In this document: positions 3 to 61,939 of the stretch, piece by piece
Position numbering within the stretch: position 1 is the first letter of the stretch
How the letters are laid out: every line of letters starts with the position of its first letter
Source: Gammaproteobacteria bacterium
Lineage (GTDB): Bacteria; Pseudomonadota; Gammaproteobacteria; Acidiferrobacterales; Sulfurifustaceae
Length of the DNA stretch: 64,000 bases
Direction of reading: 5' to 3'
NCBI GenBank assembly: GCA_016199745.1
Contig: JACQFZ010000013.1
Coordinates: forward strand, 1 to 64,000
Translations under genes and position numbers: made by a program
The notes under the pieces: generated by a model
Told to the model about the DNA's origin: nothing
The model's database searches: none
What the model saw: only the letters and a program-made list of their open reading frames with translations

Positions 3-1070
3 GAAGTCCTGATTCCAAAGAAAAGCGGTGGTCAACGCCCGCTCGGGATTCCAACGGTCTCGGATCGTATCGCCCAGACCGTCGTAAAACTCGTGCTCGA
101 ACCCGAACTGGAACCTCACTTCCATGAGCACTCCTACGGGTACCGTCCGGGTAAGTCAGCCCATCAAGCAATCGGCGTCACCCGCGAGCGTTGCTGGCGG
201 CACGATTGGGTGCTGGAGTTCGACATCCGGGGGTTGTTCGACAACATTGACCACGGCCTTCTGATGAAAGCGGTTCGGCATCACACGACCTGCAGATGGA
301 TCCTGCTCTACATCGAACGCTGGCTAACGGTGCCGGTGCAACAGGAAAACGGGGAACTACGCCATCGAGAGAAAGGCACCCCGCAGGGCGGAGTCATCTC
401 GCCGTTGCTGGCGAATCTCTTCCTGCACTACACCTTCGATCGATGGATGACGAGGCATTGTCCCCGCATACCCTTCTGCCGGTACGCCGATGACGGACTG
501 ATCCATTGCCGCAGTCTCAGGCAGGCGCGTTACCTTAGAGAAAGGTTGGCGCAACGGCTAACGGAATGCGGATTGGAACTTCATCCCGATAAGACACGGA
601 TCGTCTACTGCAAGGACATTCATCGACAGCAAAAGTACGAACACATCCAATTCGACTTCCTGGGATACACCTTCCGTCCGAGGTTCAGTAAAGATCGGTA
701 TGGTCGTCTCTTCACCACCTTCACGCCTGCAATCAGTCCGGCCGCCGCGAAAGCGTTGCGCCAGGAGATTCGGGGGTGGCGGTTGCAATTGAAAAGCGAC
801 AAATCGATCGACGACCTCTCGCGGATGTTCAGCCCCATGATCTCGGGATGGATGAACTACTACTGTCGATTCCGCGCCTCGGTCTTCTACCGCGTGGCAA
901 AACATATCAACCGTGCGCTGGTCCGATGGGCCATGCGTAAGTTCAAAAGACTGCAAGGTCACAAACGTCGGGCAGACCAATGGGTTGCGCGCATCATGCG
1001 CCAACGACCCAATCTCTTCCCGCACTGGCGTTCGTCTTGCAGTCGCGGCTCGATGATGGGAGCCGGATGA
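3..1070 (+). CDS. ltrA: Group II intron reverse transcriptase/maturase, 5' end outside the window
   Basis: Intron-encoded protein that binds its own intron RNA for splicing and copies it at new DNA sites. The frame is open from base 3 and already reads reverse-transcriptase sequence (PKKSGGQRPLGIPT), so the N-terminus lies upstream. The GTG at 93 is internal, not the start. Visible are SYGYRPGKSAHQAI, the GTPQGGVISPLLANLFLHY block and the catalytic YADD (CRYADDGLIHC). A maturase (GIIM) domain around SGWMNYYCRF follows. It ends shortly after the maturase domain, so no HNH endonuclease domain is present. The stop codon lies inside intron domain V. The intron sits in an IS3-family transposase gene. 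Confidence 0.93.
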   Translation, partial: EVLIPKKSGGQRPLGIPTVSDRIAQTVVKLVLEPELEPHFHEHSYGYRPGKSAHQAIGVTRERCWRHDWVLEFDIRGLFDNIDHGLLMKAVRHHTTCRWILLYIERWLTVPVQQENGELRHREKGTPQGGVISPLLANLFLHYTFDRWMTRHCPRIPFCRYADDGLIHCRSLRQARYLRERLAQRLTECGLELHPDKTRIVYCKDIHRQQKYEHIQFDFLGYTFRPRFSKDRYGRLFTTFTPAISPAAAKALRQEIRGWRLQLKSDKSIDDLSRMFSPMISGWMNYYCRFRASVFYRVAKHINRALVRWAMRKFKRLQGHKRRADQWVARIMRQRPNLFPHWRSSCSRGSMMGAG

Positions 1071-1134
1071 ACCGAGAGGTTCACGTCCGGTTCTGCGAGG
1101 GCCTGGGGGTGAGATTCCCCCGGGCTACTCACCC
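1060..1134 (+). ncRNA. Group II intron RNA, domains V and VI and 3' end
   Basis: Domain V is visible at 1060-1093 as a 34-nt hairpin. GAGCCGGATG pairs with CGTCCGGTTC around the GAGA-capped inner stem AACC/GGTT. It is followed at about 1097-1126 by a domain VI hairpin (GCCTGGGGG paired with CCCCCGGGC). The 3' splice junction should fall near 1130-1134, because transposase coding sequence resumes at once. The exact junction cannot be fixed without the uninterrupted target. Confidence 0.8.
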
Positions 1135-45053: not shown

Positions 45054-45189
45054 GTGAGCGTTCTCCTCTGGGGCGTTGTCCAATGCTTAAAAGTCCAAAA
45101 TACGGATACCAACGGCAGAAACGGATAGGGGAGGATGGGAGACGGGTGCGAGAAGAGCAAGCCGCCTGCATCGCCCTCCGCGATACCGA

Positions 45190-45395
45190 ACCTGCAGTCA
45201 CTTCGGGCCGGTCTCCGGACTCACGAGTCGGTCCCCCTCCGGGTCCCGTTGCCGGCGCCTTCCCGTGTTCGCACACAGTGGCGTACCGCTGGCGTTTTAC
45301 TCGTTTACCGTTGCGGGGGCAGCGTCGGAATTGCCTTGCGGCGCACCGACTTCCCGTTTCACCCCCATGGAAAATGCCCATGGAGTACCTGAAGC
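45190..45395 (-). ncRNA. Adenosylcobalamin riboswitch
   Basis: On the minus strand the leader reads GGGTGAAACGGGAAGTCGGTGC, then GCTGCCCCCGCAACGGTAAACG, and later a B12-box-like GTGAGTCCGGAGACCGGCCCG (plus coordinates about 45204-45225). These are the conserved core elements of the cobalamin aptamer in the right order. It lies about 140 nt upstream of cbtB, so it should turn off the cobalt-import and chelatase operon when adenosylcobalamin is plentiful. Confidence 0.93.
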
Positions 45396-45409
45396 GTTAC
45401 TACCGGCGC

Positions 45410-57710: not shown

Positions 57711-59252
57711 CTACGCTCGGCTGTTACGAACGAACAACCAATGACGTGCCACCGCTTTCAGATTGGCGACGGTCTTGCCGAAGCGCGTCGTGCGGCAGTG
57801 CGGGTTGATCGGTTCGCCTAATAGCTCCGGCCAAGTGCGTTCGATGAATCGGCGGAACAAGGAATAGTTCGGTGCCCGGCGATAGCGCTCATCGACGCCG
57901 AGCAGGACGGTGAACAGTTCACGACAGTTGTAGGGCGTGAAGATCTCGCGCCATGCGATATCGAATTCGAGCTGGGTCATTGCCAGCCAGTTGCCGTAGT
58001 CTTGTTCCCATTCGAAAAGATCGAGCAGCTTTACATGCGTTTGCCGGCCGGCATCGGCCAGCCATTCGCTGAAGTGGTGTACCAAGAAGGGTTGGGTCGA
58101 GCCATATTCGAGCCATGCCAGCAACTCTGGTGTGAAATGTACGTAGTCGGCATGCGGCAACTTCGCACGGAACGGGCAGCGTCCGACCTCGGCGCCGCTG
58201 CCGGTCAATGTCGCGCGGCTGCGTCCGAAGCGTTGCAGCAGCGCTTCGGCGTCGTGACCGTAATGATCGTGCGCCAGGTAAACATTGTTTTTGAACTGCC
58301 AGCTAAACTCCGGCGTCATCGTCGGCGCGGCGCGGATGATGTCGTGCGGCAGCCGCAGTGTTTTGAGAAGACGCGCGGGGATGTCGATATCCGGATGACG
58401 ATCGGACAGTTTTCCTTGGCGCACGGTAATGATTTCTACTTGATCGACGATTCCGCGAGCCGCCGCGAGCACCACGCGGCTATCGAGCCCGGCAGTCAAC
58501 GCCAGCGTCAACGGGAAGCGGTTCGCCGCCGCTCGAATCGTTCCCGTCAGAAGAATGCCGAATCGATCAAGCGCCGATTTCGCGGTTAGTCGTTCGATCG
58601 GAGCTGTCGGCCAGTAGCGCTCGGCGTTGCCGGTTTGCAGATTGAGACGGTGATTCGGCAAGAGATGTTTTAGCTCCTTGAACGGCGTCGCTGCCGCCGG
58701 CCAGCGCGACTCGGACGTGCGGCGGAATGTCTGTGAATCCATGTATTGCTTCGCCGATTCGTCGACGACGAGTTCCAAGACCTCGCGGCCGATTCCCGGT
58801 TGCGACATTGCCCATAGCGCGCCTGTTTGTGCCGGGTCGGTGTAGAATGCCTGGCGCAATCCCAGTGCATCGTGGAATAAAAAGACGTCGCGCTCGTCTG
58901 CGGCAATTAATAACCAACGACCGCCGAGACGGTTAGTCGCGGTCATGAGCGATTCGTGGGTTCGAAAATTATCCAGCAGGTCTTGCAGAATTTCGCGGTT
59001 GCCGGCGTCGGGGTTCAGCGGATCGAGCAGATGTCCGAGTAGCGTTAACTCGCGGCTGCCGGCAGTAATCTGCGTGCAGCTGACGGTCGGATGTGCGGTC
59101 AGCTTGAGGTGTTGCGTCACCGAAAAATGTTGCCACTCGCGCAGCGTGTCGACGAACCTCGGGCCCAGCAGAAATTGGCTGACATAGCGATCGGCGTTGG
59201 CTACCGATGTTGGTGCAGTTCGTTGCTTGTGTGTCGCGTCGAGCGTGATCAT
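57711..59252 (-). CDS. Asparagine synthase-like protein, divergent from a repeat peptide gene
   Basis: 513 residues. The C-terminal half is an Asn_synthase-type ATP-pyrophosphatase domain: LTLALTAGLDSRVVLAAARG (P-loop near 250), LTGSGAEVGR and LFEWEQDYGNW. The N-terminal half resembles the Ntn domain (RLGGRWLLIAADERDVFLFHDALGLRQAFY), but residue 2 is Ile, not the catalytic Cys, so glutaminase activity is not expected. Such enzymes activate carboxylates as acyl-adenylates; relatives cyclise lasso peptides. A GGAGG site precedes the ATG. The divergent small gene at 59477 is the natural candidate partner. Confidence 0.85.
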   Translation of the reverse strand: MITLDATHKQRTAPTSVANADRYVSQFLLGPRFVDTLREWQHFSVTQHLKLTAHPTVSCTQITAGSRELTLLGHLLDPLNPDAGNREILQDLLDNFRTHESLMTATNRLGGRWLLIAADERDVFLFHDALGLRQAFYTDPAQTGALWAMSQPGIGREVLELVVDESAKQYMDSQTFRRTSESRWPAAATPFKELKHLLPNHRLNLQTGNAERYWPTAPIERLTAKSALDRFGILLTGTIRAAANRFPLTLALTAGLDSRVVLAAARGIVDQVEIITVRQGKLSDRHPDIDIPARLLKTLRLPHDIIRAAPTMTPEFSWQFKNNVYLAHDHYGHDAEALLQRFGRSRATLTGSGAEVGRCPFRAKLPHADYVHFTPELLAWLEYGSTQPFLVHHFSEWLADAGRQTHVKLLDLFEWEQDYGNWLAMTQLEFDIAWREIFTPYNCRELFTVLLGVDERYRRAPNYSLFRRFIERTWPELLGEPINPHCRTTRFGKTVANLKAVARHWLFVRNSRA

Positions 59253-59476
59253 GGGAGGGCCTCCGCTGTTATGGAACGGATGTTCGCCGGTCGCTCGTTG
59301 TTTTCATAGCGGTGTTGCCAAAGCCGTGAACGCTTTAGGGGCAAGCCGTCGCAGTGTCGTCATTCGGCCACTGGGGATTTTTACCGATAGTAGGTTTTGT
59401 CCTATCGCAGTAGGGTGAACCTCGTGAGTCGCTAAGGCTCACATCAGACTACTAACCTCAATATGGAGAACACCTG
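59253..59476. promoter_or_regulatory. Divergent control region with two inverted repeats
   Basis: It separates the Asn synthase-like gene from the small peptide gene. An imperfect inverted repeat (CGATAGTAGG then CCTATCG, 59385-59407) and a hairpin (GTGAG...CTCAC, 59424-59442) lie in the peptide gene leader. No clear promoter hexamers were found. Confidence 0.4.
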
Positions 59477-59608
59477 ATGATTCATGCAAAAGGCTGCAGC
59501 ATCGGAGGCGGCGGGCAACCGTCGGTAGGAGGTGGAGGACAACCCACCGTCGGTGGCGGCGGGCAGCCGCCGACAGTGCAGGGCGGTGGTGGACAGCCAC
59601 CTACATAA
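59477..59608 (+). CDS. 43-residue GGGGQP-repeat peptide, candidate RiPP precursor
   Basis: ATG at 59477 with GGAG nine bases upstream. The short leader MIHAKGCSI is followed by four GGGGQP units: GGGGQPSV, GGGGQPTV, GGGGQPPTVQ and GGGGQPPT-stop. One Cys lies at residue 7. No signal peptide or known motif is seen. A strong terminator 70 bp downstream makes it a self-contained transcription unit. Codons vary between repeats (GGA, GGC, GGG, GGT), so the peptide, not only the DNA, seems conserved. No family is recognised. Confidence 0.7.
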   Translation: MIHAKGCSIGGGGQPSVGGGGQPTVGGGGQPPTVQGGGGQPPT

Positions 59609-59677
59609 GTTAGCCGGCAGAATTGTCGGAGATTGTCTTTTTACTCGTCTAATTTAATTCCCACCTTAGCTAATAGC

Positions 59678-59710
59678 CCTCACCTTCCTGGTGAGGGCTA
59701 TTTTTTTTGA
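59678..59710 (+). terminator. Strong Rho-independent terminator
   Basis: TAGCCCTCACC-TTCC-TGGTGAGGGCTA followed by a run of eight Ts. It ends the peptide gene transcript. Read on the minus strand it has no upstream gene close by, so it serves the peptide gene. Confidence 0.93.
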
Positions 59711-59733: not shown

Positions 59734-61119
59734 TTAGAACGTGCGCGCGAACAGTGTCGTCAGCGATTTTCGGAATCGATCGAACACGACGGCTTCATCG
59801 CTATGCCGGCCGTCAATGATGACAGGGCGGCCGCCGACGTAGACGTCGCGAATACAGCTGCTATCGCCGGCGAACACATACGACGTTAACTGATCGGCTC
59901 GCGTGCGACCGATCAGCTTGGGATGGTCGGCGTCGAGCACGAGCAGATCCGCCGCTGCACCGATTGCAAGACCATCGCCTACCTGTCCAAGTGCCGCGGC
60001 GCCGCCGCGTTGTGCCGCTCGATAGATTCCTTCGCCGATCGAACCTTCGCCGAGGCGCAGCAGATTTCGCTCGCGCCGCTGCAAGCGCTGGCTGTATTCC
60101 AACCAACGTAGTTCTTCGTGCACAGCGACGCTGATCTGGCTGTCGGAGCCGATGCCGTAGCGGCCGCCGGCCGCGAGATACGGCAGTATCGGAAACAAAC
60201 CATCGCCGAGATTGGCCTCGGTCGTCGGGCACAGGCCGACGACGGCACCGCTCGCGGCCATGCGCGCGATCTCGCGGTCGTCGACATGGATGGCATGCAC
60301 TAAACACCAACGCCGATCGACCGGTACGGCGTTGAATAGCCAGTCGACTGGGCGCTGGCCCGACCACGCGATGCAGCTGTCGACCTCGGCAACTTGCTCG
60401 GCGATGTGAAGGTGGATCGGAGCGGTTGCGTCGATCGTTGTCATGCCGCTGAGCGTCGCTTGCAATTCGTCCGGTGTGACGGCGCGCAATGAATGCAGCC
60501 CGAGACCGACTGCCAAGGTGTCGGCGCCACGCGCGTGCGCCCGACAGCGTTCGATAATTGCCAACAGGCGCTCGACCGGATTGATGAAGCGCCGCTGCCG
60601 TTCGGTCGGCGGTTTGCCGCCGAAGTCGGAGTGACAGTAGAGCGTCGGCAGCAGCGTTTGCCGCAAGCCGACTGCGCGCGCCGCTTCCATCAAGCGCAGG
60701 CTCATCTCCGCCGGATCGGCGTAGGGTGTGCCGTCGGCGGTGTGATGTAGGTAATGGAACTCGGCCACCGAGGTGTAACCGGCTTTCAGCATCTCGATAT
60801 AGAGCTGCATGGCAATTGCCGACAGATCGTCGGGCGCGACCTGAGCGGCCAAGCGATACATCGTCTCGCGCCAGGTCCAAAAGTTGTCGGCGGTGTTGCC
60901 GGCGCGTTCGGTGAGACCGGCCATGGCGCGTTGAAACGCGTGCGAGTGCAGGTTCGGCATGCCGGGTACACACGGGCCGGTGGCGCGCATCGTTGCTTGC
61001 GCCGGCGTGCCCGATTCGGTAGCGGCAATTTTGCCGTCGACGGTGAAGTGCAAGACGACGTTGTCGTGCCAGCCGTCGCTAAGTAATGCCGATGGGCAAT
61101 AGAGCGATGCGGGATTCAT
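59734..61119 (-). CDS. hutF: Formimidoylglutamate deiminase
   Basis: 461 residues from the ATG at 61119; the longer frame to 61170 overlaps hutG. HutF converts N-formimidoyl-glutamate to N-formylglutamate in histidine breakdown. Amidohydrolase metal ligands are in PGMPNLHSHAFQRAM, with later HLHIAEQVAEV, LVHAIHVDDREI and IGSDSQISVAVHEELRWLEY. The C-terminal beta sandwich (DLLVLDADHP) is intact. It lies directly after hutG. Confidence 0.94.
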   Translation of the reverse strand: MNPASLYCPSALLSDGWHDNVVLHFTVDGKIAATESGTPAQATMRATGPCVPGMPNLHSHAFQRAMAGLTERAGNTADNFWTWRETMYRLAAQVAPDDLSAIAMQLYIEMLKAGYTSVAEFHYLHHTADGTPYADPAEMSLRLMEAARAVGLRQTLLPTLYCHSDFGGKPPTERQRRFINPVERLLAIIERCRAHARGADTLAVGLGLHSLRAVTPDELQATLSGMTTIDATAPIHLHIAEQVAEVDSCIAWSGQRPVDWLFNAVPVDRRWCLVHAIHVDDREIARMAASGAVVGLCPTTEANLGDGLFPILPYLAAGGRYGIGSDSQISVAVHEELRWLEYSQRLQRRERNLLRLGEGSIGEGIYRAAQRGGAAALGQVGDGLAIGAAADLLVLDADHPKLIGRTRADQLTSYVFAGDSSCIRDVYVGGRPVIIDGRHSDEAVVFDRFRKSLTTLFARTF

Positions 61120-61129
61120 CGCTGGGTTC

Positions 61130-61939
61130 TCATGCGCTGCGGCGAATCGCCTGCGCTTGCGACCACGCAAGCAATGTCTGTATGAAGCGGCGCAGATGCC
61201 GTTTCATCGGTGTGGCCCGGCATTCGTCATACGAAAACGGCGGCGCTTCGTCCATGTAGCCACATTGCGCCAACTCGAGCTGAACGGCGTGCCAACCGGC
61301 CGAGGGCTGTCCGTAGTGACGAGTGATGTAACCGCCCTTGAAGCGACCGTCGAGTACCGAGGCGAACGACGCGGCATTCTGCAGTACGTCCAGTAAACGC
61401 TGTACAAGTTCGGGTGCAGCGCTCCGTCCGTCATAAGTGCCGAGATTAAAATCGGGCAGGCGGCCGTCGAACAGGCGTGGGATTACCGAGTTGATCGAGT
61501 GCGTGTCGAGCAACACGGCGATGCCGTGTTGCCGATGGAGCCGCGTCATTTCGCTGTCGAGGCGCTGATGATACGGGCGCCAGTATTGTTCTAATCGGTC
61601 GGCGCGCTCGGCGGCATCCGGTTCTTGCCCGGCTTGGTAGAGCGGTTCGCCGTTGAACAGTGTGGTTGGGCAGAGGCCGGTAGTCGTGTGACGATAGAGC
61701 GGCTCATCGTCCGGCGGTCGATTGAGATCGATGACGCTGCGCGACAGCGTGGCTTGCAACACGCCGATGCCCATATCAGGCAGAAAATCGTAGAGCCGGT
61801 CGACATGCCAATCGGTATCGGGCAGCGAGCGTGCAGGTAAATTCAGTCGATCAATGAAACTGGCGGGGAGGCCGGTGCCGACATGCGGCATGCTGACAAG
61901 CACGGGTGTGTTGCCGGCTTGGAATAAGTAGGGATCCAT
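61130..61939 (-). CDS. hutG: N-formylglutamate deformylase
   Basis: 269 residues. It hydrolyses N-formylglutamate to glutamate and formate, the last step after HutF. Family landmarks are VLVSMPHVGTGLPASF, DTDWHVDRLYDF, VIDLNRPPDDEPLY, LLDTHSINSVIPRLFDG and GGYITRHYGQP. The gene precedes hutF by 10 bp, so they form an operon. hutH, hutU and hutI are not in the window. Confidence 0.94.
   Translation of the reverse strand: MDPYLFQAGNTPVLVSMPHVGTGLPASFIDRLNLPARSLPDTDWHVDRLYDFLPDMGIGVLQATLSRSVIDLNRPPDDEPLYRHTTTGLCPTTLFNGEPLYQAGQEPDAAERADRLEQYWRPYHQRLDSEMTRLHRQHGIAVLLDTHSINSVIPRLFDGRLPDFNLGTYDGRSAAPELVQRLLDVLQNAASFASVLDGRFKGGYITRHYGQPSAGWHAVQLELAQCGYMDEAPPFSYDECRATPMKRHLRRFIQTLLAWSQAQAIRRSA

Follow-up and report, generated by a model that had tools for sequence, protein, structure and literature searches.

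A candidate peptide-modifying pair: an asparagine-synthetase-like enzyme without its glutaminase nucleophile and a divergent GGGGQ-repeat peptide gene

Enzymes of the asparagine-synthetase fold adenylate a carbonyl oxygen, after which a nitrogen attacks. Two of them, carbapenam synthetase (CarA) and beta-lactam synthetase, have lost their glutaminase and carry out ATP-dependent amide formation within the substrate. To our knowledge, asparagine-synthetase-like enzymes of ribosomal peptide natural products are almost confined to lasso peptides, whose McjC-type macrolactam cyclase is accompanied by B1/B2. Multicore RiPP precursors, for example those of cyanobactins and some graspetides, combine several near-identical units and variable spacers in one short gene. 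The window analysed here, a stretch of 64,000 nucleotides from contig JACQFZ010000013.1 of the gammaproteobacterial assembly GCA_016199745.1, contains two divergent genes that recall lasso systems in that an asparagine-synthetase-like enzyme stands beside a short precursor gene, and multicore precursors in the near-identical units and variable spacers of this gene. Unlike multicore RiPPs, the pair comes without a recognisable leader, protease, ATP-grasp or YcaO enzyme, and the partner of the peptide is an asparagine-synthetase-like protein. It differs too from the uncharacterised asparagine-synthase-related proteins of Nitrospira, Acidiferrobacteraceae and others, which belong to the same family (40-52% identity) and have the same invariant residues, but which are often found in polysaccharide clusters and have no repeat peptide.

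The enzyme of the pair (57711-59252, minus strand) is a protein of 513 amino acids with an ATG start. Pfam assigned it to no family, and in NCBIfam it matches TIGR01536 only, at 24.9 bits, far below the cut-off of 267.1. An AlphaFold2 model built from 36 relatives (pLDDT 92.6, pTM 0.91) has carbapenam synthetase among its best Foldseek matches (E 5e-16), and near-full-length matches to carbapenam synthetase, beta-lactam synthetase, TsnB9 and AsnB (VIA Z 21-22); in the PDB it matches AsnB with a Z of 22.4 (1ct9, 370 residues) and carbapenam synthetase with a Z of 22.3. Going by the model, the enzyme is of the asparagine-synthetase (AsnB/carbapenam-synthetase) fold, and hhalign against Cys-bearing AsnB-type proteins (E 2.3e-16; the profile alignment covers residues 104-356) aligns it with the same group. 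With glutamine-hydrolysing AsnB it has in common the fold and the ATP pyrophosphatase loop, which is kept in altered form as LTAGLDSR at 252-259, TAGLDSR pairing with SGGLDSS, while TGSGAEV replaces TGDGADE. It departs from AsnB at the N-terminal Cys nucleophile: the alignment begins with AsnB residue 1 opposite model residue 25, and Gln26, invariant in the enzyme family, occupies the place of the Cys. An invariant Gln at this position indicates that the glutaminase nucleophile is gone, and bears out the absence of the N-terminal Cys claimed in an earlier note on this DNA. The glutaminase is likewise not working in CarA and beta-lactam synthetase, which have the same full-length fold and are among the best structural matches; they are only 12-18% identical to the window enzyme and act on small acyl amino acids, whereas the module that we propose would act on an encoded peptide. 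At the C-terminus, the Lys of the KxGF motif, invariant in five AsnB-type comparison proteins, has no visible counterpart in the enzyme family, which ends in EPINP in a part of the protein that the profile alignment does not reach. This lack of a counterpart may mean that the chemistry of the enzyme differs from that of AsnB or is absent.

The likeness to lasso systems does not extend beyond the arrangement of the two genes. The window protein matches no lasso-cyclase model. A B2 leader protease (PF13471) has no match in the genomes G000, G014, G004 and G015, and a B1/RRE protein (PqqD-like, PF05402) is found neither near the pair nor, in three of these four genomes, anywhere; the single PF05402 match (G000:C28) lies within a 742-codon open frame on a different contig from the pair. 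Lasso precursors need an acceptor Asp or Glu at core position 7-9, and the window peptide contains neither residue. With B2, a nearby RRE, a conserved leader and an acceptor acid all missing, we reject a lasso peptide system, in agreement with the earlier view that this would not be a classical lasso cluster.

The peptide gene (59477-59608, plus strand) encodes 43 amino acids with four GGGGQP units, MIHAKGCSIGGGGQPSVGGGGQPTVGGGGQPPTVQGGGGQPPT, as had been read from the sequence before; it is identified from its ORF, from codon statistics and from counterparts at four further loci (L004, L005, L038 and L165). It is separated from the enzyme start by a divergent intergenic region of 224 bp (59253-59476) that contains both 5' regions and in which neither a sigma-70-like match nor a conserved RNA structure was seen. 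The ribosome-binding site TGGAGA (59464-59469, plus strand) has its GGAG core about 10 nt upstream of the ATG and is of moderate strength, so that the good site previously claimed applies less to the window than to the four counterparts, all of which have GGAGGT. The strong terminator attributed to the gene stands, as a predicted stem of 13 bp with a T-run behind it (59672-59702, plus strand). Between stop codon and terminator a small hairpin is predicted (59614-59629, plus strand), with a hairpin at the equivalent place in all five peptide genes, whose whole 3' parts fold with z of -2.6 to -6.3; every one of the five has its own ribosome-binding site and hairpin-terminator end. Beyond the terminator, hutF (59734-61170, minus strand) runs convergently, which makes the mini-ORF a stand-alone gene and not the leader peptide of a downstream operon. 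The peptide has no match in Pfam or NCBIfam, and open-access papers held nothing relevant on GGGGQP or GGGGQ peptides with such an enzyme, or on RiPPs of asparagine-synthetase-like enzymes.

Homologues 64-65% identical to the enzyme occur in two further genera of the family, at L004 (genome G014) and L005 (genome G004), and a fourth, 60% identical and truncated by a contig end, is encoded at L038 in the metagenome-assembled genome 13_May_SF_Bin80. With the window enzyme they make four, at least 60% identical, that form one clade by maximum likelihood (support 100/100), and beside each of the four lies a divergent mini-ORF of 25-55 amino acids with 2-5 GGGGQ units: besides the window peptide these are MRNIFIGGGGQTDPRIGGGGQTDTI at L004, MRNIFIGGGGQDPRIGGGGQNDGIPQL at L038 and MRSKHAIGGGGQPPNSIGGGGQPNDLIRGGGGQPPRMGGGGQPKPTGGGGQPPVL at L005. 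L004 and L038 are near-orthologues, and the known set of four enzymes and five peptides spans three genera of one family, mostly from draft metagenome-assembled genomes. The earlier note had looked to homologues lacking a nearby peptide, or to an ORF with neither translation nor conservation, as evidence against the pairing; every homologue of at least 60% identity proved to be linked to a peptide. A nucleotide pattern that stands for two GGGG-Q units matched in 3/57 genomes of the order, exactly those with the clade enzyme and always adjoining it, and in none of the other 54, while a reversed-pattern control gave no match; the probability of this strict-pattern coincidence arising by chance is 1/29,260. 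G001 and G005, which have paralogues only, gave no match. A relaxed search based on the L004 5' region recovered a fifth peptide that the strict pattern had missed, an orphan in the draft genome G015 (L165 1400-1480, minus strand, on G015:C279), MQNNIFGGGEQTGPSIGGGGQPDTFG, with the units GGGEQ and GGGGQ. Its 5' region is 81% identical to that of L004, with a similar ribosome-binding site and terminator; its neighbour is a DUF3530/hydrolase gene, no asparagine-synthetase-like gene is adjacent, and elsewhere G015 has only a 46% paralogue. With the orphan counted, the association is 3/3 clade genomes against 1/54 others (p ~1.4e-4). A sequence model of the 5' region and ORF, run over the order, added no clear member to the set; the weak matches inspected held no repeat ORF, apart from three at a contig end whose frames were unread.

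The outer neighbours of the pair differ between the three genera: hutF/hutG and a redoxin gene in the window, HbpS-like and AsnB genes at L014, and an AcrB-type RND transporter at L015. Only the enzyme-peptide pair is kept, and it stays together while its surroundings change. In G014 only, a glutamine-hydrolysing AsnB homologue (L014 10757-12670, plus strand) lies a few hundred bases downstream of the peptide ORF. More distant relatives of the enzyme lack the partner. The window genome has two paralogues at 50-51% identity (L017 8516-10087 and L018 8581-10137, on contigs C56 and C61), one of them within a polysaccharide cluster, and neither has a repeat peptide. The peptide is absent as well from the flanks read of homologues at 40-52% identity in Nitrospira, Thiogranum, Brocadia, Syntrophaceae and others, several of which have glycosyltransferases and Cys-bearing AsnB-type proteins as neighbours within polysaccharide clusters. 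A scan of the paralogue loci for a ribosome-binding site, short ORF and terminator yielded no peptide candidate, at a setting that also misses the weak-site gene of the window. Viral contigs gave no relative, and a plasmid search gave relatives at 23-28% only. In samples of the class (369 genomes) and phylum (398 genomes), GGGGQ matches outside the known members were mostly Gly-rich stretches of longer frames, with a few short frames besides, and no clade enzyme was present wherever the surroundings were read. One short ORF in G057 (L141, G057:C79:15599-15673) is a perfect (GGGGQ)5 tandem with no related enzyme nearby, and looks like an unrelated minisatellite-type gene.

The five peptides contain 15 copies of the repeat unit in 12 different DNA versions. 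Among 279 pairwise base differences between units, 265 fall at codon position 3, none at position 1 and 14 at position 2, all of the latter tracing to the single GGGEQ unit. Gln and the first three Gly are kept in 15/15 units, and the Gln codons CAA/CAG are kept across units. The spacings between units vary (24, 24 and 30 nt in the window; 30 at L004; 30, 33, 27 and 27 at L005; 27 at L038; 30 at L165), and each is a multiple of three; between the cores of L004 and L038, the only differences are the in-frame loss of one codon and synonymous changes. This concentration of differences at third codon positions argues that the peptide is under selection, as the synonymous codons of the window repeats had suggested before. 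Outside the units little is retained: the 6-9 residues before the first unit, the Cys, the Lys and the acidic residues are not conserved among the five peptides. The 9-residue leader proposed earlier is not supported by this comparison, as the relatives have 6, 6, 6 and 7 residues there with no conserved sequence, and a leader role is improbable for the pre-repeat segment of the window peptide. The single Cys, also put forward as a modification site, is present in the window member only.

What might the enzyme do with such a peptide? Our preferred reading, to which we give about an even chance, is a small RiPP-like module of two genes: the enzyme would use ATP to activate the repeat peptide and would modify it, probably at Gln. 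The peptide gene, short, monocistronic and with no leader to be recognised, would yield a flexible peptide of 2-5 GGGGQ units. The divergent enzyme, unable to draw ammonia from free glutamine, would act on this peptide instead, spending ATP (with formation of AMP and PPi) to activate a peptide carbonyl for a new C-N or related bond. No functional side chain other than that of Gln recurs in every unit, so that a unit probably offers a single modification site, at Gln, displayed on a Gly4 arm. With neither Asp nor Glu, the window peptide lacks a side-chain carboxylate, and the peptides of L004, L038 and L165 are free of Lys; a side-chain isopeptide therefore cannot be the common reaction. Shared by all the peptides are their termini and the side chains of Gln, and the recurrence of the unit favours a per-unit event at Gln; head-to-tail joining, or attachment of a small amine at the C-terminus, may be alternatives. 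A candidate precursor gene linked to a candidate modifying enzyme, one feature of RiPP systems in the broad sense, is found at four loci in three genera, and the pair has neither a protease nor an RRE or exporter beside it. That the pair represents a new RiPP class, leaderless and multicore, with Gly4-Gln units modified at Gln by a glutaminase-dead enzyme, possibly through the side-chain amide, and doing without protease, recognition domain and exporter, is a tentative suggestion. Besides the lack of such accompanying genes, the small set of known members and the C-terminus without a visible KxGF counterpart, two further findings count against the module: the orphan peptide at L165 in G015 has no adjacent enzyme, and the active site has no visible retuning for peptides, with only three positions separating the peptide-linked clade from its peptide-less paralogues.

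Since so few positions are clade-specific and nearly all conserved ones are common to clade and paralogues, the comparison suggests that the family's basic reaction is unchanged in the peptide-linked clade, and this leaves room for a peptide that serves the enzyme as a small binding partner, as a pseudosubstrate or as a regulator, while the true substrate, for example a glycan, would have to be sought elsewhere. The frequent location of the 40-52% paralogues in polysaccharide clusters beside Cys-bearing AsnB-type proteins fits such a role, and a unit number of 2 to 5 would be tolerable for a multivalent binder. We nevertheless hold it to be unlikely, as in three genera the clade is found away from polysaccharide clusters, no glycan gene goes along with the pair, and strict retention of Gln in each unit suits a reaction site better than loose binding. 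The orphan of G015, with its 5' region and terminator conserved and the enzyme not adjacent, is what would be expected if the peptide were a small protein in its own right (secreted, structural or surface-related) that merely shares the intergenic region through inherited synteny, and the restriction of all members to one bacterial family is in keeping with this. Inherited synteny is hard to reconcile with a pair that is kept where the outer gene order is not, and with the pattern of presence and absence across the 57 genomes (3/3 against 1/54), and we consider it rather improbable.

The remaining readings fare worse. The (GGN)4 units could form a two-tier G-quadruplex, or the transcript could act as an sRNA with hairpin and terminator at its 3' end, the ORF being incidental or secondary; the strongly folded 3' ends and a 5' region conserved in one genus would be compatible with an RNA function. 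Such a function would not account for the kept Gln codons, the spacings in multiples of three, the wobble changes, the in-frame indels or the presence of a ribosome-binding site and stop codon; moreover, the 5' region belongs to no Rfam family and folds no better than shuffles (z -0.49 and -0.52), and the Rfam matches here are all sub-threshold and mostly terminator-like, which makes this reading quite improbable. Repeated codons in a short ORF, and a terminator behind it, also recall a leader-peptide attenuator of a downstream gene. The gene past the terminator is convergent in the window and at L015, the enzyme runs the opposite way, and a co-directional gene, the AsnB homologue, is present only at L014; gene orientation thus rejects the attenuator for two of the three genera and leaves it very little probability overall. 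Perfect (GGGGQ)n tandems without the enzyme, such as that of G057, show how a chance ORF in a GC-rich tandem repeat might look. We reject this origin for the present peptides and give it almost no weight: each unit has a codon usage of its own, the spacers vary, and the gene is conserved in five loci together with ribosome-binding site and terminator.

Taken from genome comparison, the conserved pair points to an undescribed peptide-modifying system. If the proposed module is correct, a leaderless GGGGQ-repeat substrate and its enzyme, two genes in all, would widen the chemistry of asparagine-synthetase-like enzymes; the pair would be very small for transfer to a laboratory host, and it would provide a first handle on the uncharacterised asparagine-synthetase-like proteins in polysaccharide clusters of several phyla. 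Elsewhere in the window, Rfam matches mark a cobalamin riboswitch (45189-45407, minus strand, 108.6 bits) and a group II intron (1058-1133, plus strand, 58.9 bits).
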